Below the pieces are notes generated by a model. It did no database searches, was not told the DNA's origin, and worked only from the letters and a program-made list of their open reading frames with translations. Positions 3,178 to 28,519 of a stretch of DNA of 29,010 bases are shown here, piece by piece. Each line of letters starts with the position of its first letter. Position 1 is the stretch's first letter. Both the position numbers and the translations under genes were made by a program. Source of the DNA: a virus; the IMG/VR virus record IMGVR_UViG_3300030329_004017, positions 1 through 29,010 of that record; one strand, written 5' to 3'.

Positions 3178-3678
3178 CTAGAACGGAATTTCGTCATCCG
3201 CTGGTGCTTCTGATTCGGCCGGTGGAGGTGGAGCACTCTTCTTAGATGGTGCTCTGTTCTGTTTGAAGGCACTAGAGAACAGATTATCTAGCTGCCTCAT
3301 CTCTTTCTTCTCCAGGCTTTCGTATTTGCTACCAGTCGATATGTGCCAGCGTTCCTTCAGCTCTCCTTCGTACTCTTCATGAGTAACGTACATTTCTACG
3401 TCTTGGCCTGCGAAGACTTGAGCCTCAGGATGCGACGGGTCCAAAGTGCTAACACGGTCACCAGTGAAGCCAAGAGCCCTTAGGTTATCAACCGTAAAGC
3501 TAACCGTCTTGCTAGTGAGGTATGTGTAGCAAGTCCTGTCTTCAGCATCGACAGGAACACCGCGCATATTCAGCGGATAGAAGTGAAGCACAAAGCATGG
3601 AGTGCCTTTGCTTCCCGACTTAGTCATCCCTTGCCCTGTGACTCTGCACAGATAAGTGCCTGGTTCGTATGTTGTCAT
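3178..3678 (-). CDS. Single-stranded DNA-binding protein (SSB-like)
   Basis: 166 aa. The N-terminal ~115 residues look like a beta-rich OB-type domain (YEPGTYLCRVTGQGM, CFVLHFYPLNMRG, YVTHEEYEGELKERWHI). A Pro/Ser/Ala-rich linker follows, and the protein ends in DDEIPF, the acidic tip by which SSB proteins recruit partner enzymes. Its start overlaps the stop of the ATPase gene by ATGA, so the two are probably translationally coupled. With the nuclease and Sak4-like ATPase it forms a phage recombination set: end resection, strand annealing and ssDNA protection. The tip is the decisive evidence; the OB assignment is inferred from pattern and position. Confidence 0.8.
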   Translation of the reverse strand: MTTYEPGTYLCRVTGQGMTKSGSKGTPCFVLHFYPLNMRGVPVDAEDRTCYTYLTSKTVSFTVDNLRALGFTGDRVSTLDPSHPEAQVFAGQDVEMYVTHEEYEGELKERWHISTGSKYESLEKKEMRQLDNLFSSAFKQNRAPSKKSAPPPPAESEAPADDEIPF

Positions 3679-4499
3679 TTGTCTTTGCCTTGCTTAATTG
3701 TGTTGATGAAGTTTGACCAACCTTCCGCGCCTGATTCACCTAGCTCGAATTCCTCAGGCATACCGTGACGGTTCTTAGCGTCCCAAGCTGGGGTCTTAGT
3801 CGTAAAAGCAACACGGTCTAATCCGCCTTTGCCTTTCGCGCGTAAGCCTTCAGCATCGATAGCTACAGGGGTGTGAAAGAAGAGGACGATATCTGCCCAC
3901 TTATGAGTAGCACCCCAAAGCTTCTTGTGTAGCTCTGGTGTATATCGGTCGTAGTCCTCACCTTCAGGATTATGAAAGGGCTTCACGTGACTATGACACA
4001 AGCAGATAACAGCCATCTTCTGACGCTCTCTCAGCTCATCGAGTGCAGCTAAGAACTGTCGCCAATCACCAACAGATGACTCAGGACCTTGTCCATACGC
4101 TAAGAAGGCTTTCATCGAGCCTTTGAAGTCTCGTCGGCATACGTGATTGAAACAGAGTGCTTCAAGTCCGTTAATCGTATCGATGATCAGCGTCTTGTAA
4201 TCCGTAGGTGTGTTTGTCAGCTCTTCTATAATCGCTAACAACTCGCACCACTCTTTGACTTCTGGGAAGTGTGGCGTTTCGTCTAGCCTTCCTGAATCTA
4301 TCAGAGTCTCTAGACCTGTCTCACCATCACTCATAATCACTAACGGCTTGGGTGCTGATGCGCCAAAGCTCGTCTTACCAACTCCCTCCCCACCATGAAC
4401 TATCAGTCGCTGTGGTAGGTTCCTCCCTTTGCTGACTACGTTGGACAGGGCTGATATCGCCGTTGTCCGCGAAGCTGTCTGTGCTTTCGCCGTTGCCAT
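3675..4499 (-). CDS. Sak4-like RecA-fold ATPase, putative recombinase
   Basis: 274 aa. Walker A is GGEGVGKTS (residues 36-44) and Walker B is TLIIDT (103-108). HSHVKPFHNPEG and YTPELHKKLWG follow, in the layout of phage Sak4 / AAA_24 proteins, which anneal single strands or load recombination partners. I start at 4499 because AAGGAGATCCCAG precedes that ATG; an upstream in-frame start at 4523 has no comparable site. The first 125 bases overlap the end of the nuclease gene in another frame. Downstream coupling to the SSB-like gene supports a joint function in recombination or recombination-dependent replication. Confidence 0.85.
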   Translation of the reverse strand: MATAKAQTASRTTAISALSNVVSKGRNLPQRLIVHGGEGVGKTSFGASAPKPLVIMSDGETGLETLIDSGRLDETPHFPEVKEWCELLAIIEELTNTPTDYKTLIIDTINGLEALCFNHVCRRDFKGSMKAFLAYGQGPESSVGDWRQFLAALDELRERQKMAVICLCHSHVKPFHNPEGEDYDRYTPELHKKLWGATHKWADIVLFFHTPVAIDAEGLRAKGKGGLDRVAFTTKTPAWDAKNRHGMPEEFELGESGAEGWSNFINTIKQGKDK

Positions 4500-5544
4500 C
4501 TGGGATCTCCTTAAAATGGTCAAACCAAGCTCTTAATGCTTCGTGCATCAATGAACCGAAATGCAAAGCTTCAGAATCCTCTTGATTCTGTTTCCTGATT
4601 CCTAACTCGTATCTGTAGTAGTGTTTCCTCCTGCATGTCTGATAGGTGCTAATTCGTGAATTGGTTAATAGGTTTCTACCGTCGTCTTCTGTATCGAGCT
4701 CGGCATGAACCTTATCGACATTCTCCCAACGATCGCTATCCGGCTCGTCATGTCCACTACAGATGCCCAGGTAAGCACAGGGACGACCATAGGACATACA
4801 AGCTGCTGAGTTACGGAAGTTTCTACCCGTCCTCTGTGAGTCTCTGATAGCCTGTGAAACGTGCCACAGCTCATAGGCCCATTCCACAATCTCATGGTCC
4901 AGACGTGGAATCATCTTTCGTCTGAAATACCACTCAGGTCGCGTGCAACAGTCTTGGGCTAATCTGGCGGTAAACATCCAGGGAGTCTCCCTGAACTCAT
5001 CAGAAGCCAATCTGGCATATTCTGAGTCACTGATAGCCCATCCGTAGTATTGATGCTTGTCATCCACCTCTCGCATGGTGCCTAGCTTTATCTCGCCTGT
5101 CTTGTTCGTCCTAGGCACTGTCTTAGGCTTGATGTTGGGCTTCCTGATAACGTCGTAGACCGTACCAGATAACTTAATGCCTCTCTGCCAATGACTCAGC
5201 ACATACATGCTGACCTGGGAATCAATATCAAGCCGATTCCAATATGTAGAGTCACCGTGAATCTGGTCACTGGTGGTCTTGTGCTCTAGCAGGAAATGCT
5301 GGTTATCTCGAGCAATGATTCCGTCATAGACACCAGCCTGCTCAAAGGTCTTAGACGGTCTACACGTATCAGGGTTGACGATAGGAAGCTTGAATTGCTC
5401 TTCAGTGGTCAGAGTGGTATAGCCGGCATCATGCCATCGATAGTGATAGCCACTCATCAGCCCCTTGGCTTTAGCCTTATCGATAGGATTCGCCTCATAG
5501 GAATCTATCGTAGTCCATGACTTCTTCAGTGCTTCAAGGTTCAT
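4375..5544 (-). CDS. Cas4/AddB-like PD-(D/E)XK nuclease with permuted motif order
   Basis: 389 aa. Nuclease motifs are GVYDGI (Asp74), LLEHKT (Glu87, Lys89) and QVSMY (Gln110, Tyr114). A cysteine triplet follows, C249MSYGRPC256AYLGIC262. Only then comes the segment that normally opens this family: LLTNSRISTYQTCRRKHYY (Cys304) and FGSLMHEAL (His334). All parts of an Fe-S nuclease are present, but the usual N-terminal part is at the C-terminus, and the protein begins where that part would normally lead (ALKKSWTTIDSYEANPIDKA). The start overlaps the upstream gene, so no N-terminal module is hidden there. The last ~42 residues overlap the ATPase gene and look like filler. Expected role: DNA end resection feeding the ATPase and SSB. 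Confidence 0.85.
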   Translation of the reverse strand: MNLEALKKSWTTIDSYEANPIDKAKAKGLMSGYHYRWHDAGYTTLTTEEQFKLPIVNPDTCRPSKTFEQAGVYDGIIARDNQHFLLEHKTTSDQIHGDSTYWNRLDIDSQVSMYVLSHWQRGIKLSGTVYDVIRKPNIKPKTVPRTNKTGEIKLGTMREVDDKHQYYGWAISDSEYARLASDEFRETPWMFTARLAQDCCTRPEWYFRRKMIPRLDHEIVEWAYELWHVSQAIRDSQRTGRNFRNSAACMSYGRPCAYLGICSGHDEPDSDRWENVDKVHAELDTEDDGRNLLTNSRISTYQTCRRKHYYRYELGIRKQNQEDSEALHFGSLMHEALRAWFDHFKEIPDGNGESTDSFADNGDISPVQRSQQREEPTTATDSSWWGGSW

Positions 5545-5728
5545 AAGCAGACTTCTTTATGCGTACGGTTAGGTTAAGCATATCCCTATAGTCCAGAGAC
5601 AAGTCGGAATCTTTGTGCATCTCAACAATTCGATATATGACTTCCTTCCACCTATCACGCCTATATAGAAAGATGTACTTCTCACCATCCTGCTTAATCA
5701 GTGCTTGAACGTAGATGTCTTCATCCAT
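5534..5728 (-). CDS. Small hypothetical phage protein, 64 aa
   Basis: MDEDIYVQALIKQDGEKYIF then LYRRDRWKEVIYRIVEMHKD. The pattern 'EKYIFLY' with a following helix and LSLDYRDMLNLTVRIKK recurs in small phage proteins next to recombination genes, but its function is not known to me. The start at 5728 overlaps the upstream stop, with GAGG six bases before it, and its end overlaps the nuclease start by 11 bases. It is part of a tightly packed operon. Confidence 0.75.
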   Translation of the reverse strand: MDEDIYVQALIKQDGEKYIFLYRRDRWKEVIYRIVEMHKDSDLSLDYRDMLNLTVRIKKSAYEP

Positions 5729-5921
5729 CGTCGGCCTCGCTTTCTTTAGTGAGCTGTCGCAGCGCGTCAGACGTTGCGTGTTTCCTCGCCCTCATTTCCT
5801 CAAGTGTTGCACCGTAAACGACTGCGATAGTCTTTCGTTCGCCATCGCCAAACAAATACACTTCGCCGCGATACCGGCCCTTTAGTTTGCGGTCGTTAAT
5901 TGACGGAAGAATTGTAGGCAC
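5721..5921 (-). CDS. Small hypothetical protein, 66 aa (GTG start)
   Basis: Starts at a GTG preceded by a very strong ribosome site GGAGGAGGTG. The protein is basic and hydrophilic: MPTILPSINDRKLKGRYRGE, then VYLFGDGERKTIAVVYGATLE and a charged helix. No family is recognised. It is the first gene after the palindrome at 5944-5962 and overlaps the next gene by 8 bases. Confidence 0.7.
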   Translation of the reverse strand: MPTILPSINDRKLKGRYRGEVYLFGDGERKTIAVVYGATLEEMRARKHATSDALRQLTKESEADDG

Positions 5922-5943
5922 AATCGCACCTCCTCCGATTTAT

Positions 5944-5962
5944 TGTGGAGTATCACTCCACA
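5944..5962. promoter_or_regulatory. Perfect 19-bp inverted repeat
   Basis: TGTGGAGT-atc-ACTCCACA, fully symmetric in its 8-bp arms, about 25 bases before the GTG at 5921. The short 3-base spacer suits either a DNA operator or an RNA hairpin that exposes GGAG near the ribosome site. GGA-containing hairpins are preferred CsrA targets, and csrA is the gene just upstream. Confidence 0.6.
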
Positions 5963-6103
5963 TTAATTAGTTCTTTTAAAGCTGATCGCGTAAGCCAAAT
6001 CCCAAGAGCAGCCAGCCTTGCCGTCGTCGCCAGAACCAGCTCCCCGCGGAATGCGAATTACCCGGTAGGGCGACTCAAGGAGCGTGTATCCGTGCTTCGT
6101 TTC
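5963..6103 (-). other. Spacer after csrA with a coding-like frame but no start codon
   Basis: Between the csrA stop and the palindrome lies a 46-codon open frame that reads like protein (GYTLLESPYRVIRIPRGAGS, then GDDGKAGCSWDLAYAISFKR) but has no ATG, GTG or TTG where a start is needed, and a TGA closes it upstream. It may be the remnant of a gene whose 5' end was lost when csrA was inserted, or an untranslated RNA segment. I do not call a gene here. Confidence 0.35.
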
Positions 6104-6114
6104 TCACATCCTCG

Positions 6115-6288
6115 TTATCGACCACCTTCGGCCTCGCTCTCTTTGCCCTTTAGTTCGCCTCTAAGTATCTCTGTCTTCCTGTCGGCTTTAATCGAAAGTG
6201 TGACCCGGTTAGCTGACACCTTCTGTACGTAGACTTCGGAATCACCAATGTAAAGCTTCTCACCCTTCTTGCGCGTCAGTACCAACAT
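6115..6288 (-). CDS. csrA: CsrA-family RNA-binding translational regulator
   Basis: 57 aa, the usual length. It opens MLVLTRKKGEKLYIGD, matching the canonical CsrA strand 1 (Leu4, Thr5, Arg6, where CsrA contacts RNA), then VYVQKVSANRVTLSIKAD, then TEILRGEL, matching the second RNA-contact strand with its Arg (Arg43) and Glu. CsrA is a dimer that binds GGA motifs in message leaders and blocks or changes translation. The start at 6288 has AAAGGA eight bases upstream, itself a GGA site, so self-repression is possible. AACGAGGATGT at the stop codon resembles the CsrA site consensus. It overlaps the previous gene by 29 bases and is in the recombination operon. Finding it in a phage is unusual. Confidence 0.93.
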   Translation of the reverse strand: MLVLTRKKGEKLYIGDSEVYVQKVSANRVTLSIKADRKTEILRGELKGKESEAEGGR

Positions 6289-6448
6289 GATTGAATCCTT
6301 TCTGGAGGTCTGAATCTATCTGGTCAAGATAACTGTACTGCTCTTCTATAAGACGCTCTGTCTCAGCCTGGAAGACTGGGTTTAACTCCAGGTCTCTACG
6401 CTGTTCCAGATATTCGATGCGAGCTAGCCCAAGATTGAAAGCGTTCAT
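6260..6448 (-). CDS. Small hypothetical protein, 62 aa
   Basis: MNAFNLGLARIEYLEQRRDL followed by a long charged helix (ETERLIEEQYSYLDQIDSDL), probably a coiled coil or helical hairpin. I start at 6448, where AGCAGGTGCAGC precedes the ATG. A longer in-frame start at 6535 would lie inside the terminator's downstream flank and translate through the operator, which is unlikely. It is the first gene of the left operon and overlaps csrA by 29 bases. No family recognised; coupling with csrA suggests a shared role or simply compactness. Confidence 0.65.
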   Translation of the reverse strand: MNAFNLGLARIEYLEQRRDLELNPVFQAETERLIEEQYSYLDQIDSDLQKGFNHVGTDAQEG

Positions 6449-6488
6449 GCTGCACCTGCTTTCAATAGTTAAATTGTTTCCACTGTTT

Positions 6489-6504
6489 AAGACTATATCG
6501 TCTT
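6489..6504 (-). promoter_or_regulatory. Operator-like palindrome at the head of the csrA-recombination operon
   Basis: AAGACGATATAGTCTT on the minus strand, 7/8 symmetric and one of four related 16-mers in the window. It lies between the terminator at 6536-6568 and the first gene of the operon. TATAGT within it could be a -10, but I see no good -35 at the right distance, so the promoter call is weaker than the operator call. Confidence 0.5.
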
Positions 6505-6535
6505 TGGTGGTTGGCTGGAATAGCAATATGCGCAT

Positions 6536-6568
6536 AAAAAAAGATGGCTGATATCCGTATCAACCATC
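6536..6568 (-). terminator. Rho-independent terminator of the lysis operon
   Basis: On the minus strand GATGGTTGATA-cgga-TATCAGCCATC, with one G-T wobble pair, followed by seven Ts (6536-6542). It closes the operon of small genes downstream of the lysis region and separates it from the csrA operon. Confidence 0.85.
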
Positions 6569-6602
6569 CTCAACTGAAGGAACCGTCGCAACCAGACTTC
6601 TG

Positions 6603-6737
6603 CTACTTCTCTTCTTCTTTGTTGTTAGCTTTCCTATCCATGGAACCAAAGAAGTAAAGAAGAGCGATTCCCTCAGTTACTCCAACACTCATCCTGTCTC
6701 TTAATGCGAACTGCTGTGTTGTCAGGTCTAGTTTCAT
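6603..6737 (-). CDS. Small hypothetical protein, 44 aa
   Basis: MKLDLTTQQFALRDRMSVGV then TEGIALLYFFGSMDRKANNK and an acidic/basic tail. It has a short hydrophobic stretch (GIALLYFFG) that could associate with membrane. Its ATG overlaps the stop of the upstream gene (ATGA, 6734-6737), which argues for coupling and a real gene. Function unknown; position suggests an accessory lysis or membrane role. Confidence 0.6.
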   Translation of the reverse strand: MKLDLTTQQFALRDRMSVGVTEGIALLYFFGSMDRKANNKEEEK

Positions 6738-6844
6738 ATCGACCACCCAGAAAGGGCTGCCAGGAATAATCCTATAGCAAAGATAGCGACTATGACTGCT
6801 AAACCCAAAAGTTGAATCCTGTCACTCTCATTCAGTTTCTGCAC
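6734..6844 (-). CDS. Single-span membrane protein, 36 aa (GTG start)
   Basis: MQKLNESDRIQLLGLAVIVA then IFAIGLFLAALSGWSI: a charged N-terminus followed by a clear transmembrane helix of about 22 residues that runs almost to the C-terminus. It starts at GTG (6844) after CAGGGGACTTCTAAG and overlaps the end of the previous gene. Small one-span proteins near a holin often act as holin, antiholin or spanin-like accessories. No family recognised. Confidence 0.6.
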   Translation of the reverse strand: MQKLNESDRIQLLGLAVIVAIFAIGLFLAALSGWSI

Positions 6845-7116
6845 CTTAGAAGTCCCCTGAATAGCCCTCTACGCTCTCGATTGAATAGACGCCTGATTAT
6901 ACCTTCAGAACGAAAAAGGCCCTTGGATTCGCTCTCAGAAGCTGCTTTTTTCTGTTGTTGACTCTGCTTTGGCTTCTCAGGCTCTTTGGGCGTCTCTTCG
7001 TTCATGAAATCGTACTTAGCCAAGATGGCTGACTTACCTGGGATTTTCTTAGGTGTATCAGCCATGTGGTCGTACGGGTTAGCTGTCAGTACTACTAGCA
7101 GAATCAGTGATTCCAT
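6832..7116 (-). CDS. Hypothetical protein with short hydrophobic N-terminus, 94 aa
   Basis: I start at 7116 (MESLILLVVLTANPYDHMAD), with GGAGACTGAAG just upstream; the longer in-frame reading would overlap the 7130-7450 gene in a non-coding frame. A hydrophobic start (LILLVVLTA) is followed by a Lys/Pro/Gln/Glu-rich linker and a strongly basic end (GIIRRLFNRERRGLFRGLLR). It could be a small anchored protein with a basic tail. Function unknown. Its last codons overlap the next gene by 13 bases. Confidence 0.6.
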   Translation of the reverse strand: MESLILLVVLTANPYDHMADTPKKIPGKSAILAKYDFMNEETPKEPEKPKQSQQQKKAASESESKGLFRSEGIIRRLFNRERRGLFRGLLRCRN

Positions 7117-7129
7117 CTTCAGTCTCCGA

Positions 7130-7450
7130 TTACATGTGTGATATCTCGTCTTTAATTTTGGCGTGCTCCACGTTGAGCCTATCCCAGAGAAGCTGCATAA
7201 CCTCTTCAATAACTGGAACCAAATGTTTTCCACCGATGTAATCATTCTCCACCTTGACTGTCCCGGTAGGAAACCCAGCAGCCATGCCAATACGCATAGT
7301 CACATCAAACCCATCGCGGGTGGCTACCGCTATTCCGTCTAATACTCGCTTAACCTCCATCTCCCTGTGGTTTATCCGTTCAGCTTCTTTGATTCGGTCA
7401 TCTAACTCAGCTCGTTCTTTCTTCAGTCTTTCTACTAGTCCGTGATCCAT
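7130..7450 (-). CDS. Hypothetical coiled-coil protein, 106 aa
   Basis: MDHGLVERLKKERAELDDRI and KEAERINHREMEVKRVLDGI predict a long helical coil over the first ~40 residues. A compact region GMAAGFPTGTVKVENDYIGG and a C-terminal helix follow. Start at 7450 with GAGG upstream, nine bases after the protease stop; a TTG at 7462 is a weaker alternative. No family recognised. Being coupled to the protease, it could be a partner or inhibitor, which is speculation. Confidence 0.65.
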   Translation of the reverse strand: MDHGLVERLKKERAELDDRIKEAERINHREMEVKRVLDGIAVATRDGFDVTMRIGMAAGFPTGTVKVENDYIGGKHLVPVIEEVMQLLWDRLNVEHAKIKDEISHM

Positions 7451-7458
7451 ATCAGCCC

Positions 7459-8511
7459 TCAAATGTGCAAGTAGGAAATGTCTCTACGGTTGATACCGTC
7501 TACACGACTAATCAACCAACTACCTCTAGCGTTCAACATTCTTCCAGCCACTCTATCTGTTACCCAGAATGAACCCACTGGTTGGTCTAGATAGGTAGGT
7601 CCACTGATCCAATCGCCCCAGCTGTTCTGAATGAGAAACAGCCTCTCGCCATAGTGCTTATAGGCTTCGTTGTCCTCGTCATCGATGCAGCCAATGAAGG
7701 TCATGGCATGTGACCAGCTACCCCTAGGACGAGCTACACCGAATCTACCGCGGTCAGAATTGAAACCGTAGTCACTACAGACTGCTACGCCGTATCCGTT
7801 GCCAATGGCATCACAGAGCTCATCAGTATTGGTGATGAGTGCAACGTGCTTAGATTTGTTTTTGGCTGCTATTTTGTTGAGCCATCCTGGCGTGCCTCTT
7901 CTGCCCCAATTGTGTCCAGTGCGCGAATTGTAAGACGATAAATCCTCGCTGTTACTACCAGATGAGTAATCGCCACGAACCAGAAAACCCCCTGGCCCAT
8001 CATCTGAGACGTATCCACAGAGGTCACTGCAACTAGCCCCCTGCCCTCCATGTCCGCGCCAGCCGTAGATGTTTTCAGTAGCAAGCCTGCCCTTGTAATC
8101 AGTTTCGCCGAATGCAGCATCAATACAGTAGTCAAGCATACCGCTGTTGCGAGTAGCGTGACTAACACAATCGCCCGTTGTCTGTGGTTCATAGCCACCA
8201 AACTCCGGCTCTAGTTGAAGTACTGCTTTGTAGGGCAAGCTGATTTTGCCCCTGCCTGTCTTCTCTAGATGGATAGCAACCTGACCAAACAGGAAGCCTC
8301 CTTGCTTCGCTGTAAGGCTAGAGCAAAGAGAAGCGAACTTCTCTGGGTTTCTAACGCTTCCTACCGCTTTGACAAGATGCCCATTTTCATCATAGCCACC
8401 CTGTGAATACAGTCTGACTAAGTCTTCGGGTTTAGGCGCTTCATCTTTGAATTCATGCCAAGCACCTAATGATCCGTGGTCATATTCATTAGATGTGATC
8501 GTATTCGTCAC
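7459..8511 (-). CDS. Papain-like (peptidase family C1) cysteine protease
   Basis: 350 aa. The papain catalytic plan is complete and in order: Gln110-TTGD-Cys115-VSHA (oxyanion Gln and nucleophile), SWSHAMTFIG with His268, and IQNSWGDW with Asn296. Family C1 enzymes hydrolyse peptide bonds. The ~100 residues before the nucleophile could act as a propeptide or targeting domain. No signal peptide is visible, so export would need the holin or another route. GTG start at 8511 with AGGA eight bases upstream; it overlaps the previous gene by 23 bases. No lysozyme, amidase or transglycosylase was recognised nearby, so it may be the lytic enzyme or a tail/host protease. Confidence 0.88.
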   Translation of the reverse strand: MTNTITSNEYDHGSLGAWHEFKDEAPKPEDLVRLYSQGGYDENGHLVKAVGSVRNPEKFASLCSSLTAKQGGFLFGQVAIHLEKTGRGKISLPYKAVLQLEPEFGGYEPQTTGDCVSHATRNSGMLDYCIDAAFGETDYKGRLATENIYGWRGHGGQGASCSDLCGYVSDDGPGGFLVRGDYSSGSNSEDLSSYNSRTGHNWGRRGTPGWLNKIAAKNKSKHVALITNTDELCDAIGNGYGVAVCSDYGFNSDRGRFGVARPRGSWSHAMTFIGCIDDEDNEAYKHYGERLFLIQNSWGDWISGPTYLDQPVGSFWVTDRVAGRMLNARGSWLISRVDGINRRDISYLHI

Positions 8512-15178: not shown

Positions 15179-16830
15179 TATTTTTCTAGGTGTCTTCCGC
15201 GGGCTGCGTTGGCATTGCCCTTGTTAACGTTCTGCTGCCCATTAAGAAGCCTTTTTTCATCTGCTGCATTCTGTCTCAGTTGAACAAGTATCTCTTCTAA
15301 GAGCTCGGCTGACCGTCTTTCAGCATGACTCATTTCATCTGGAGTTTTCTTTCTATCTGCTGGTGGTGGACCTCCAAAAAAGTCGCCTTCCAAGCCACTA
15401 AACTTCTGAGGGTCTTGGGCGATTGTTATTTGCCTTAGTCTCTTCCTGACCATCCTCAGAAGACCTGATGTCTTGTCACCAGTAAAAGCGTTAACTGTGT
15501 CCTGTAGGTCCTGGTCTGTCTTTCCAGCTGCGCCCTTTATCCCCCTGTCTCTGAGTTTCTTCAATCCTTCAAGAACCAGCCTTCTTGACGAAGCCCTAAT
15601 TGCACCAACTTCATCTGTCAGGTCAATCTTCTGCAGCAGCCTATCTGTCTGCGATTCCCTTACGCCAGTTCTCAATGGGGCAGTGGCTGTCCTGCCTTCT
15701 GCAAATCTTCGCTCAGCAATCTTTGGGTCGAATCTGATATCTTTCATCACCTCAGCAAACTTCTTCATTCCCTCCTTGGAGGTAATCCCCTGTATGAATT
15801 CTTTGGTCTGTCCAAGCTGCGCCTTGGAGAAAAATGCTTCCCTGAGGAATGGGTCTTGGAGGAGCTTAATCCTTCCCTGAATGGTTCCAGGGTCCTGAGG
15901 TCTAACAAGTCCATCGTCATGATCCCCGGTAATCCCCTTTCTTTCCATTGCATCCAATGTGCGCTGGTCTAACTTGAATCCTTTAGTAACGAACTCGTTT
16001 AATGCTCCAGCAAAATTACCAGAAAACCTTCTAGACACTTCACCTGTTGTGTCTGTTCCAACACGGGACAAGCGAGCGAAGAAAGTGGAGGCAAACCGGG
16101 CTACCTCTTTCTTGTCCTGGTTCTTTACCGTCTCTGTCCAGCGAGCGATTACCCGCGGTAGGTTCTCGGCAACTTTAGCAATATTTTCGACTGACGAAGC
16201 CTGTTGTGTGGCTGCAATCATGCCGCCCGTTGCCAAAGCAGATTTATCACCAGACTTGTTCATTACCGCAACAACAGCCTTAGCCATCTCTGGCGCATCT
16301 TGCGGCCTGTTACGGGTCAGTTCTCCAGCAAACCTTCCGGCTTGAACAGCTTGCCTAGGTGTAGCTCCAGCTGATATAGCTACGCCTAGCAATCGCTCCA
16401 GCACCTTGGCATCAGGGAATGCTGTGATCTTCGCTAGTGGTGCAGCCTGAGCCCTGACAAATTCCTTTTGTTTCTTCGTCAGCGATACGATGTTGTCTAG
16501 TTGCTCTTCCTGAGCTGCTGCCATCGCGCGTTGCTCGTCAGCTGCTGCTTTGTCTGCTGCTCTCCTTTCCTTTACCGCATCACCATAAATACGAAGGGCT
16601 GCAGTAGCTGCATCCCAAGCAGAACGAATACCAAATATTGCACCAGCTGCCTGCATCGCACCTTGCTTAACCGAAGCAGTTAGTCGTCGCTGTGCTTGCT
16701 GGCTCTTTTTGGAAGCACTCGTCATCTGCTGCTGCTGCTGCAACAACTTGGTGTTGGCCTTCATGAGCTTGGCGTAATCACGCTCTAGCTCTCGAAAGTC
16801 AGACGTAGCTTTCCACTTGGCAACACCCAT
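15178..16830 (-). CDS. Tail tape measure protein
   Basis: 550 aa, mostly helical: an N-terminal coiled coil (FRELERDYAKLMKANTKLLQ, then five glutamines), a short hydrophobic stretch AAGAIFGIRSAWDAATAAL, and long Ala/Lys/Arg/Glu helices. Tape-measure length sets tail length at roughly 1.5 A per residue, so about 80 nm would be expected if uncleaved. No peptidoglycan-hydrolase motif is visible. The ATG shares its A with the stop of the frameshifted chaperone frame, the usual order of chaperone then tape measure. The glutamine run is encoded by a CTG/CAG repeat. Confidence 0.8.
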   Translation of the reverse strand: MGVAKWKATSDFRELERDYAKLMKANTKLLQQQQQMTSASKKSQQAQRRLTASVKQGAMQAAGAIFGIRSAWDAATAALRIYGDAVKERRAADKAAADEQRAMAAAQEEQLDNIVSLTKKQKEFVRAQAAPLAKITAFPDAKVLERLLGVAISAGATPRQAVQAGRFAGELTRNRPQDAPEMAKAVVAVMNKSGDKSALATGGMIAATQQASSVENIAKVAENLPRVIARWTETVKNQDKKEVARFASTFFARLSRVGTDTTGEVSRRFSGNFAGALNEFVTKGFKLDQRTLDAMERKGITGDHDDGLVRPQDPGTIQGRIKLLQDPFLREAFFSKAQLGQTKEFIQGITSKEGMKKFAEVMKDIRFDPKIAERRFAEGRTATAPLRTGVRESQTDRLLQKIDLTDEVGAIRASSRRLVLEGLKKLRDRGIKGAAGKTDQDLQDTVNAFTGDKTSGLLRMVRKRLRQITIAQDPQKFSGLEGDFFGGPPPADRKKTPDEMSHAERRSAELLEEILVQLRQNAADEKRLLNGQQNVNKGNANAARGRHLEK

Positions 16831-28360: not shown

Positions 28361-28519
28361 TCACTCATGTATCCACTGTCCAACGTTTGGCGAATGTCTT
28401 TGCAATACTCGCTGGCAGAAAACATCTTTTTCAACTTGCCACCTGCATTCTAAGCCCGCTCTTTCTAGACCTAAATCAAGTCCACCTATCCCAGCAAACA
28501 AAGACCCAAATGAAATCAT
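28361..28519 (-). pseudogene. N-terminal fragment of a C5-cytosine DNA methyltransferase
   Basis: 52 aa from ATG 28519: [20 protein letters not shown], then [20 protein letters not shown] and [12 protein letters not shown], stop. [19 protein letters not shown] is motif I (SAM binding) of Dcm-type enzymes and [14 protein letters not shown] is motif II. Motif IV (PCQ) and all later motifs are missing. The ATG overlaps the upstream stop by ATGA, so the fragment may still be translated. It is either dead or a decoy/antigenic remnant; no methylation activity is expected. Confidence 0.85.

Follow-up and report, generated by a model that had tools for sequence, protein, structure and literature searches.

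A divergent CsrA-family gene near the nuclease, Sak4 and SSB-like genes of an IMG/VR virus record

Genome organization

The window analysed here is the whole of a 29,010-base stretch of an IMG/VR virus record (IMGVR_UViG_3300030329_004017, positions 1 to 29,010), in which nearly all annotated genes lie on the minus strand. The minus-strand order is terminase, lambda-type portal, ClpP-type head protease, Mu gpT-type capsid, tail-region genes and papain-like peptidase, followed by small genes, the nuclease, Sak4, an SSB-like protein and a GP88 protein. The features of the region around csrA, in that order, are as follows.

7459-8511, minus strand: papain-like (C1) peptidase with a QNSWG motif; no Pfam match
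6540..6571, minus strand: intrinsic terminator with a 14-bp stem, before the csrA unit (-17.4 kcal/mol, z -6.2)
6434-6466: inverted repeat of 9 bp, holding the Shine-Dalgarno site and ATG of the 62-aa ORF in its loop
6260..6448, minus strand: 62-aa ORF (MNAFNLGL...) upstream of csrA; no family
6296..6298, minus strand: GGA in the csrA ribosome site (AAAGGATTCAATC-ATG), an ordinary Shine-Dalgarno; leader fold z 0.04
6115..6288, minus strand: csrA-like gene for a CsrA-family protein of 57 aa; ATG to TAA, 57 codons, intact frame
6106..6117, minus strand: TAACGAGGATGT at the csrA stop, matching 9/12 positions of the CsrA SELEX consensus RUACARGGAUGU; unstructured
5940..5966, no strand assigned: near-perfect palindrome TTAATGTGGAGT-GAT-ACTCCACAATAA with 12-bp arms, before the recombination genes (z -3.2)
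5721..5921, minus strand: 66-aa ORF, first gene of the recombination unit, with a strong ribosome site (Shine-Dalgarno GGAGGAGG)
5534..5728, minus strand: 64-aa ORF without a family (Pfam, PHROGs)
4375..5544, minus strand: Cas4/RecB-type PD-(D/E)XK nuclease with a circularly permuted motif order
3675..4499, minus strand: Sak4-like ssDNA annealing ATPase (PF13479, E 1.9e-32; phrog_124, E 2.5e-32; both scans were run on the longer ORF 3675-4523)
3178..3678, minus strand: SSB-like protein with an acidic ...DDEIPF tail, in the usual position

No integrase was identified among the annotated genes. Close relatives were found neither by the portal protein in viral contigs or GTDB genomes nor by the nuclease alone in viral contigs; relatives of the nuclease were retrieved only with alignments. 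At 28361-28519 (minus strand) a C5 DNA methyltransferase is represented by an N-terminal stump of 52 aa (TIGR00675, E 2.2e-6, profile positions 3-40 of 329), which ends in a stop codon and whose remainder is absent from the ORF list.

A preliminary description of this DNA had placed csrA at the head of an operon with nuclease, ATPase and SSB. The nuclease and the Sak4-type ATPase were confirmed by profile. The SSB-like protein gave no family match in the profile libraries searched; its assignment is based on its tail, its position and its homologues, which directly follow Sak4 in L034, L036, L038-L047, L049-L051 and L071-L075. The leading place of csrA was overstated: it is not plainly the head of the nuclease operon, being second in a unit that begins after the intrinsic terminator. 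The 62-aa ORF (6448-6260) precedes it and overlaps its first 29 nt, which would allow translational coupling, and the folding energy of the inverted repeat at 6466-6434 is not unusual (z -0.3). The next gene starts 193 nt after csrA, past the palindrome at 5940-5966, a possible repressor operator or leader hairpin. This interval has no minus-strand terminator, and a transcript spanning csrA and the recombination genes is possible. A scan of 5400-7500 found no sigma-70-like promoter.

Identity and predicted fold of the CsrA-family protein

The 57-codon frame reads exactly as first described, and the protein matched Pfam PF02599 at 52.6 bits (E 4.4e-14; cut-off 27 bits), residues 1-48 aligning with positions 1-49 of the 53-position profile. 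A six-frame search of the record with the same profile returned this ORF as its sole match (51.4 bits, E 3.5e-15). The match is far beyond chance, and the presence of an intact phage CsrA-family gene at 6115..6288 is thereby confirmed. In PHROGs the protein matched PHROG 9500/5527/8397. It fell below both NCBIfam CsrA equivalog cut-offs (NF002469, 39.5 vs 73 bits; TIGR00202, 38.4 vs 70.1 bits), which the CsrA copies of F116, phi297, Vibrio D65 and L010 pass. Other phage CsrA copies found scored 62-91 bits against 51.4 for the window protein in the same kind of search, and on these scores it is among the most divergent phage copies.

In E. coli CsrA, L4 and R44 are the residues most important for RNA binding. 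The alignment shows L4, T5, R6, K7, A35, R43 and E45 to be kept in the window protein, R43 being the counterpart of E. coli R44; the earlier claim that the RNA-contact strands and Arg43 are retained thus holds for L4, T5, R6 and R43. Conserved columns across 12 phage CsrA copies include L4, R6, K7, A35, R43 and E45, with L4, R6 and R43 invariant in all 12. The window protein departs from the family in three places: it has D36 where the Ala-Pro pair has its proline, its loop (VSAN) lacks the glycine, and strand 2 begins with a one-residue deletion. It shares the fold and the main RNA-contact residues with the bacterial CsrA/RsmA proteins of E. coli and Pseudomonas, from which it differs in its approximately 35% identity (fold alignment), in being one residue shorter, and in lacking the Ala-Pro proline and the loop glycine.

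An AlphaFold monomer model (pLDDT 77.5, pTM 0.50) has the expected strands and C-terminal helix, and all 15 of the 15 best PDB fold matches were CsrA/Rsm proteins or their complexes. The best match had an E-value of 0.007 at probability 1.00; modest E-values (0.007 and above) are to be expected of so short a chain (57 residues), in which the outer strands pair with a partner. The protein is accordingly modelled as having the CsrA fold.

Two readings of the gene turn on these residues. It could be a decaying copy without function, as its low score, the one-residue deletion and the lost loop glycine might indicate, and relatives close enough for a test of selection were not found; the intact frame, the ribosome site and the retained contact residues make this very improbable. 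It could also interfere with the host Csr system, by forming mixed dimers with host CsrA or by soaking up its antagonists (Csr sRNAs, FliW). A small divergent protein with an altered loop and Ala-Pro motif and intact core strands would suit that role, but with L4 and R43 kept it looks capable of RNA binding of its own; we regard interference as improbable.

GGA sites and Csr-type RNAs

The preliminary description proposed that csrA controls itself and the downstream genes through a GGA in its own ribosome site and through TAACGAGGATGT at its stop. Both sites are present. Ordinary Shine-Dalgarno sites contain GGA, and the site at the stop serves no start codon, because its ATG directly precedes TGA. 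Dinucleotide shuffles of this strand contain 35.7 +/- 5.7 sites matching RUACARGGAUGU at 9/12 positions or better, and the strand itself contains 31, hence no excess. The search of the window for GGA in hairpin loops likewise gave no enrichment over shuffles, with 0 in the csrA unit (2.05 in shuffles), 5 in the recombination unit (7.95) and 72 on the whole strand (74.8). With consensus sites at chance level and outside hairpin loops, and the stop site unstructured, autoregulation through the two GGA sites was unsupported and was set aside. A genuine RNA target is still conceivable, since one site suffices.

Csr-type sRNAs (CsrB/RsmY) were not detected above threshold in the record. The only match, to RsmY at 16436-16524 on the minus strand (19.8 bits vs a cut-off of 57, E 0.62), lies inside a long ORF and is most likely due to chance, and the idea of a CsrB-like decoy encoded in the window was rejected. 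An antagonist of the window CsrA could be host-encoded.

The circularly permuted nuclease

In Cas4/RecB-type nucleases the piece with the fourth cysteine and the GxxxH motif normally comes first. In the nuclease at 4375-5544 the motif order is D74, E87-H-K89 and Q110xxxY114, then C249, C256 and C262, then C304 and G330xxxH334. Residues 294-350 match the start of the Pfam PDDEXK_1 profile (3-56), residues 294-339 weakly match the start of Cas4 in NCBIfam, and Cas4 4r5q is weakly matched by both pieces in swapped order. The model of the nuclease (pLDDT 79.6, pTM 0.76) is confident except for the last 42 residues, and its best PDB matches, with weak E-values, include Cas4 (SSO0001), RecBCD, AddAB, EXO5 and MGME1.

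Permuted nucleases were found in the window, L034, L036, L038-L051, L071-L078 and L106 (uncultured phages), the tail piece following the core in every tested locus of the viral family with this layout. The standard order, tail piece before core, was found in L035, L079, L080 and the MAG homologues L056-L070. When a tree was built from the core only, a branch (97/89; present in 95% of bootstrap trees) separated the permuted nucleases from the others, which is consistent with a single rearrangement having produced them. The four cysteines are invariant in the alignment. AddB and Cas4 carry an iron-sulfur cluster, and by analogy these cysteines would hold one as well. No report of a permuted Cas4/RecB-type nuclease was found in open-licence PMC papers.

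Hints of the host come from two findings. Proteins with 46-53% identity to the papain-like peptidase occur in contigs of up to 164 kb, and of 392 Planctomycetota genomes 10 contain weaker matches to this C1 peptidase (24-41% identity). The second is a 34-kb contig (G152:C35, L106) of one Planctomycetota genome, which has a permuted nuclease and Sak4 together with a TerL sharing 33% identity with that of the window; the contig could be a misbinned virus. The host phylum is perhaps Planctomycetota, these matches being suggestive and not proof.

Placement of csrA beside recombination genes

Nuclease searches with alignments A1 and A3 yielded a family of uncultured phages sharing the order nuclease-Sak4-SSB. 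Besides the window, csrA-like genes were found near this cassette in 4-5 of 13 lineages.

L038: csrA 0.6 kb upstream of the cassette; 69.5 bits
L072: csrA 2 kb upstream of the cassette; 55.6 bits
L042/L043: csrA-like gene immediately following SSB; 26.3 bits, slightly below the Pfam cut-off
L034: C-terminal half of csrA at the contig edge, then a serine recombinase
L071: weak csrA-like match near the cassette

Among these only L038 and L072 exceed the Pfam cut-off. No csrA-like gene was found in L036, L039-L041, L044-L051, L074, L075 and L078, within the extent of sequence examined, nor in L106. At least 4 of 13 lineages against the published csrA background of 1.2% of phage genomes (PMC7366521) corresponds to a binomial P of ~1.4e-5 (about 1e-5 or less for 4-5 of 13), and against a background of 5% to 0.003; the linkage is a lead, because the 1.2% background is unmatched for host or habitat. 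None of the 10 contigs found by the C1 peptidase carries csrA.

Comparable arrangements were seen elsewhere. In L007, an unrelated contig found via CsrA, the order is exonuclease-Sak4-csrA, with csrA 3 nt after Sak4. Other contigs found in this way have an exonuclease ~2.3 kb downstream of csrA (L012) or replication or modification genes near it (L003, L011, L013). In the annotated phages phi297 and F116, csrA lies upstream of exonuclease genes, with RecT next in phi297. Exceptions are Providencia phage PSTCR8lys, in which csrA lies beside a cI repressor gene, and phage JC1, in which it lies among structural genes (see below). The CsrAs linked to the cassette do not group in a tree, which is weakly resolved with long branches; their common origin was unsupported, and with it a single inherited function. 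No literature linking CsrA with Sak4 was found in open-licence PMC papers, and this is hence weak evidence.

The recurring placement suggests an early-acting role. Tentatively, recombination modules of unrelated phages (Cas4/RecB-type exonuclease, Sak4 or RecT annealing protein, SSB) might recurrently include a CsrA-family protein, acquired repeatedly to serve as a translational switch timing or balancing the recombination proteins.

Comparison with known phage CsrA proteins

Phage copies of CsrA had been called rarely described, which is an overstatement. Sobrero and Valverde in 2020 counted csrA in 30 of 2,517 phages and called for loss-of-function tests (PMC7366521), a further copy is known from phage JC1 (PMC9144972), and PHROGs includes 'CsrA-like regulator' families. 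In tblastn against annotated phages the window CsrA (P0001) found no match; a consensus-like CsrA query matched 86 phage records, a count that is too high, as one of them, an Acinetobacter phage MD-2021a record (CAKLQH020000034.1, L087), is plainly chromosomal, containing a csrA region with alaS and thrA that looks like host DNA. Phage CsrA is therefore not new, and the window gene adds a divergent copy. No demonstrated function of any phage CsrA was found in open-licence PMC papers.

The RsmM proteins of P. aeruginosa phages, including F116 and phi297 (PHROG 5527/9500/8397) have the CsrA domain in common with the window protein and are encoded in the early region with exonuclease genes downstream (PMC7366521). 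Those of F116 and phi297 comprise 123 aa, including an extra C-terminal segment, and score above the equivalog cut-off, whereas the window protein has 57 aa and fails it. CsrT of Legionella integrative conjugative elements is, as cited in PMC7366521, a CsrA paralogue proposed to regulate its own element; like the window protein it is a CsrA of a mobile element, but in that citing account the element is conjugative and linked to type IV secretion, and is not a phage.

In the Bcep22-like Burkholderia phage JC1 the gene for the CsrA protein gp47 lies between the portal and major capsid genes, and one unique CsrA peptide in purified virions led to the suggestion that it is possibly virion-associated (PMC9144972). 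Both are CsrA-family genes of tailed phages, and the location between portal and capsid is that of JC1 only. A window CsrA carried in the virion and delivered with the DNA, as suggested for gp47, has little to recommend it, because csrA is separated from the structural genes by a terminator; gene position likewise counts against a late role by analogy with JC1.

The JC1 gene has also been called a moron (PMC9144972), and the window gene could be host-directed cargo that alters host physiology (carbon flow, motility, biofilm, defence) and not phage genes. CsrA is a global regulator of the host, and in Serratia CRISPR-Cas is under the control of the Rsm pathway (PMC8450108). Such a role is possible but rather unlikely, as csrA recurs within recombination and replication modules, which are not typical moron sites, and the annotated genes of the window include no integrase.

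A proposed role for the window CsrA

The best reading, to which we give a probability of about 0.55, is that the gene encodes a divergent CsrA-family homodimer, expressed early, that regulates translation of host or phage messages. The phage would make this RNA-binding protein early in infection from the short transcription unit between the structural and lysis genes and the recombination genes. The homodimer would bind GGA-containing ribosome sites and would block or tune translation of host or phage messages as infection turns to replication and recombination of phage DNA. This reading is built on the intact gene, its CsrA-family sequence and fold, the retained RNA-contact residues and its placement near exonuclease and annealing genes; RNA binding, the dimer, early timing and repression are what we infer for the window protein. 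Counted against it are the lack of any excess of GGA hairpins or consensus sites, the lack of a Csr-type sRNA, the score below the equivalog cut-offs, the failure of the cassette-linked CsrAs to group in the weakly resolved tree, the lack of a sigma-70-like promoter in the scanned region and a 1.2% background that is unmatched for host or habitat.

The repeated position of csrA beside recombination genes offers a testable idea of what phage CsrA proteins do, and csrA with three to five further genes makes a compact test system. If the idea is true, phages would apply Csr-type control of translation to their own early genes and not solely to those of the host.
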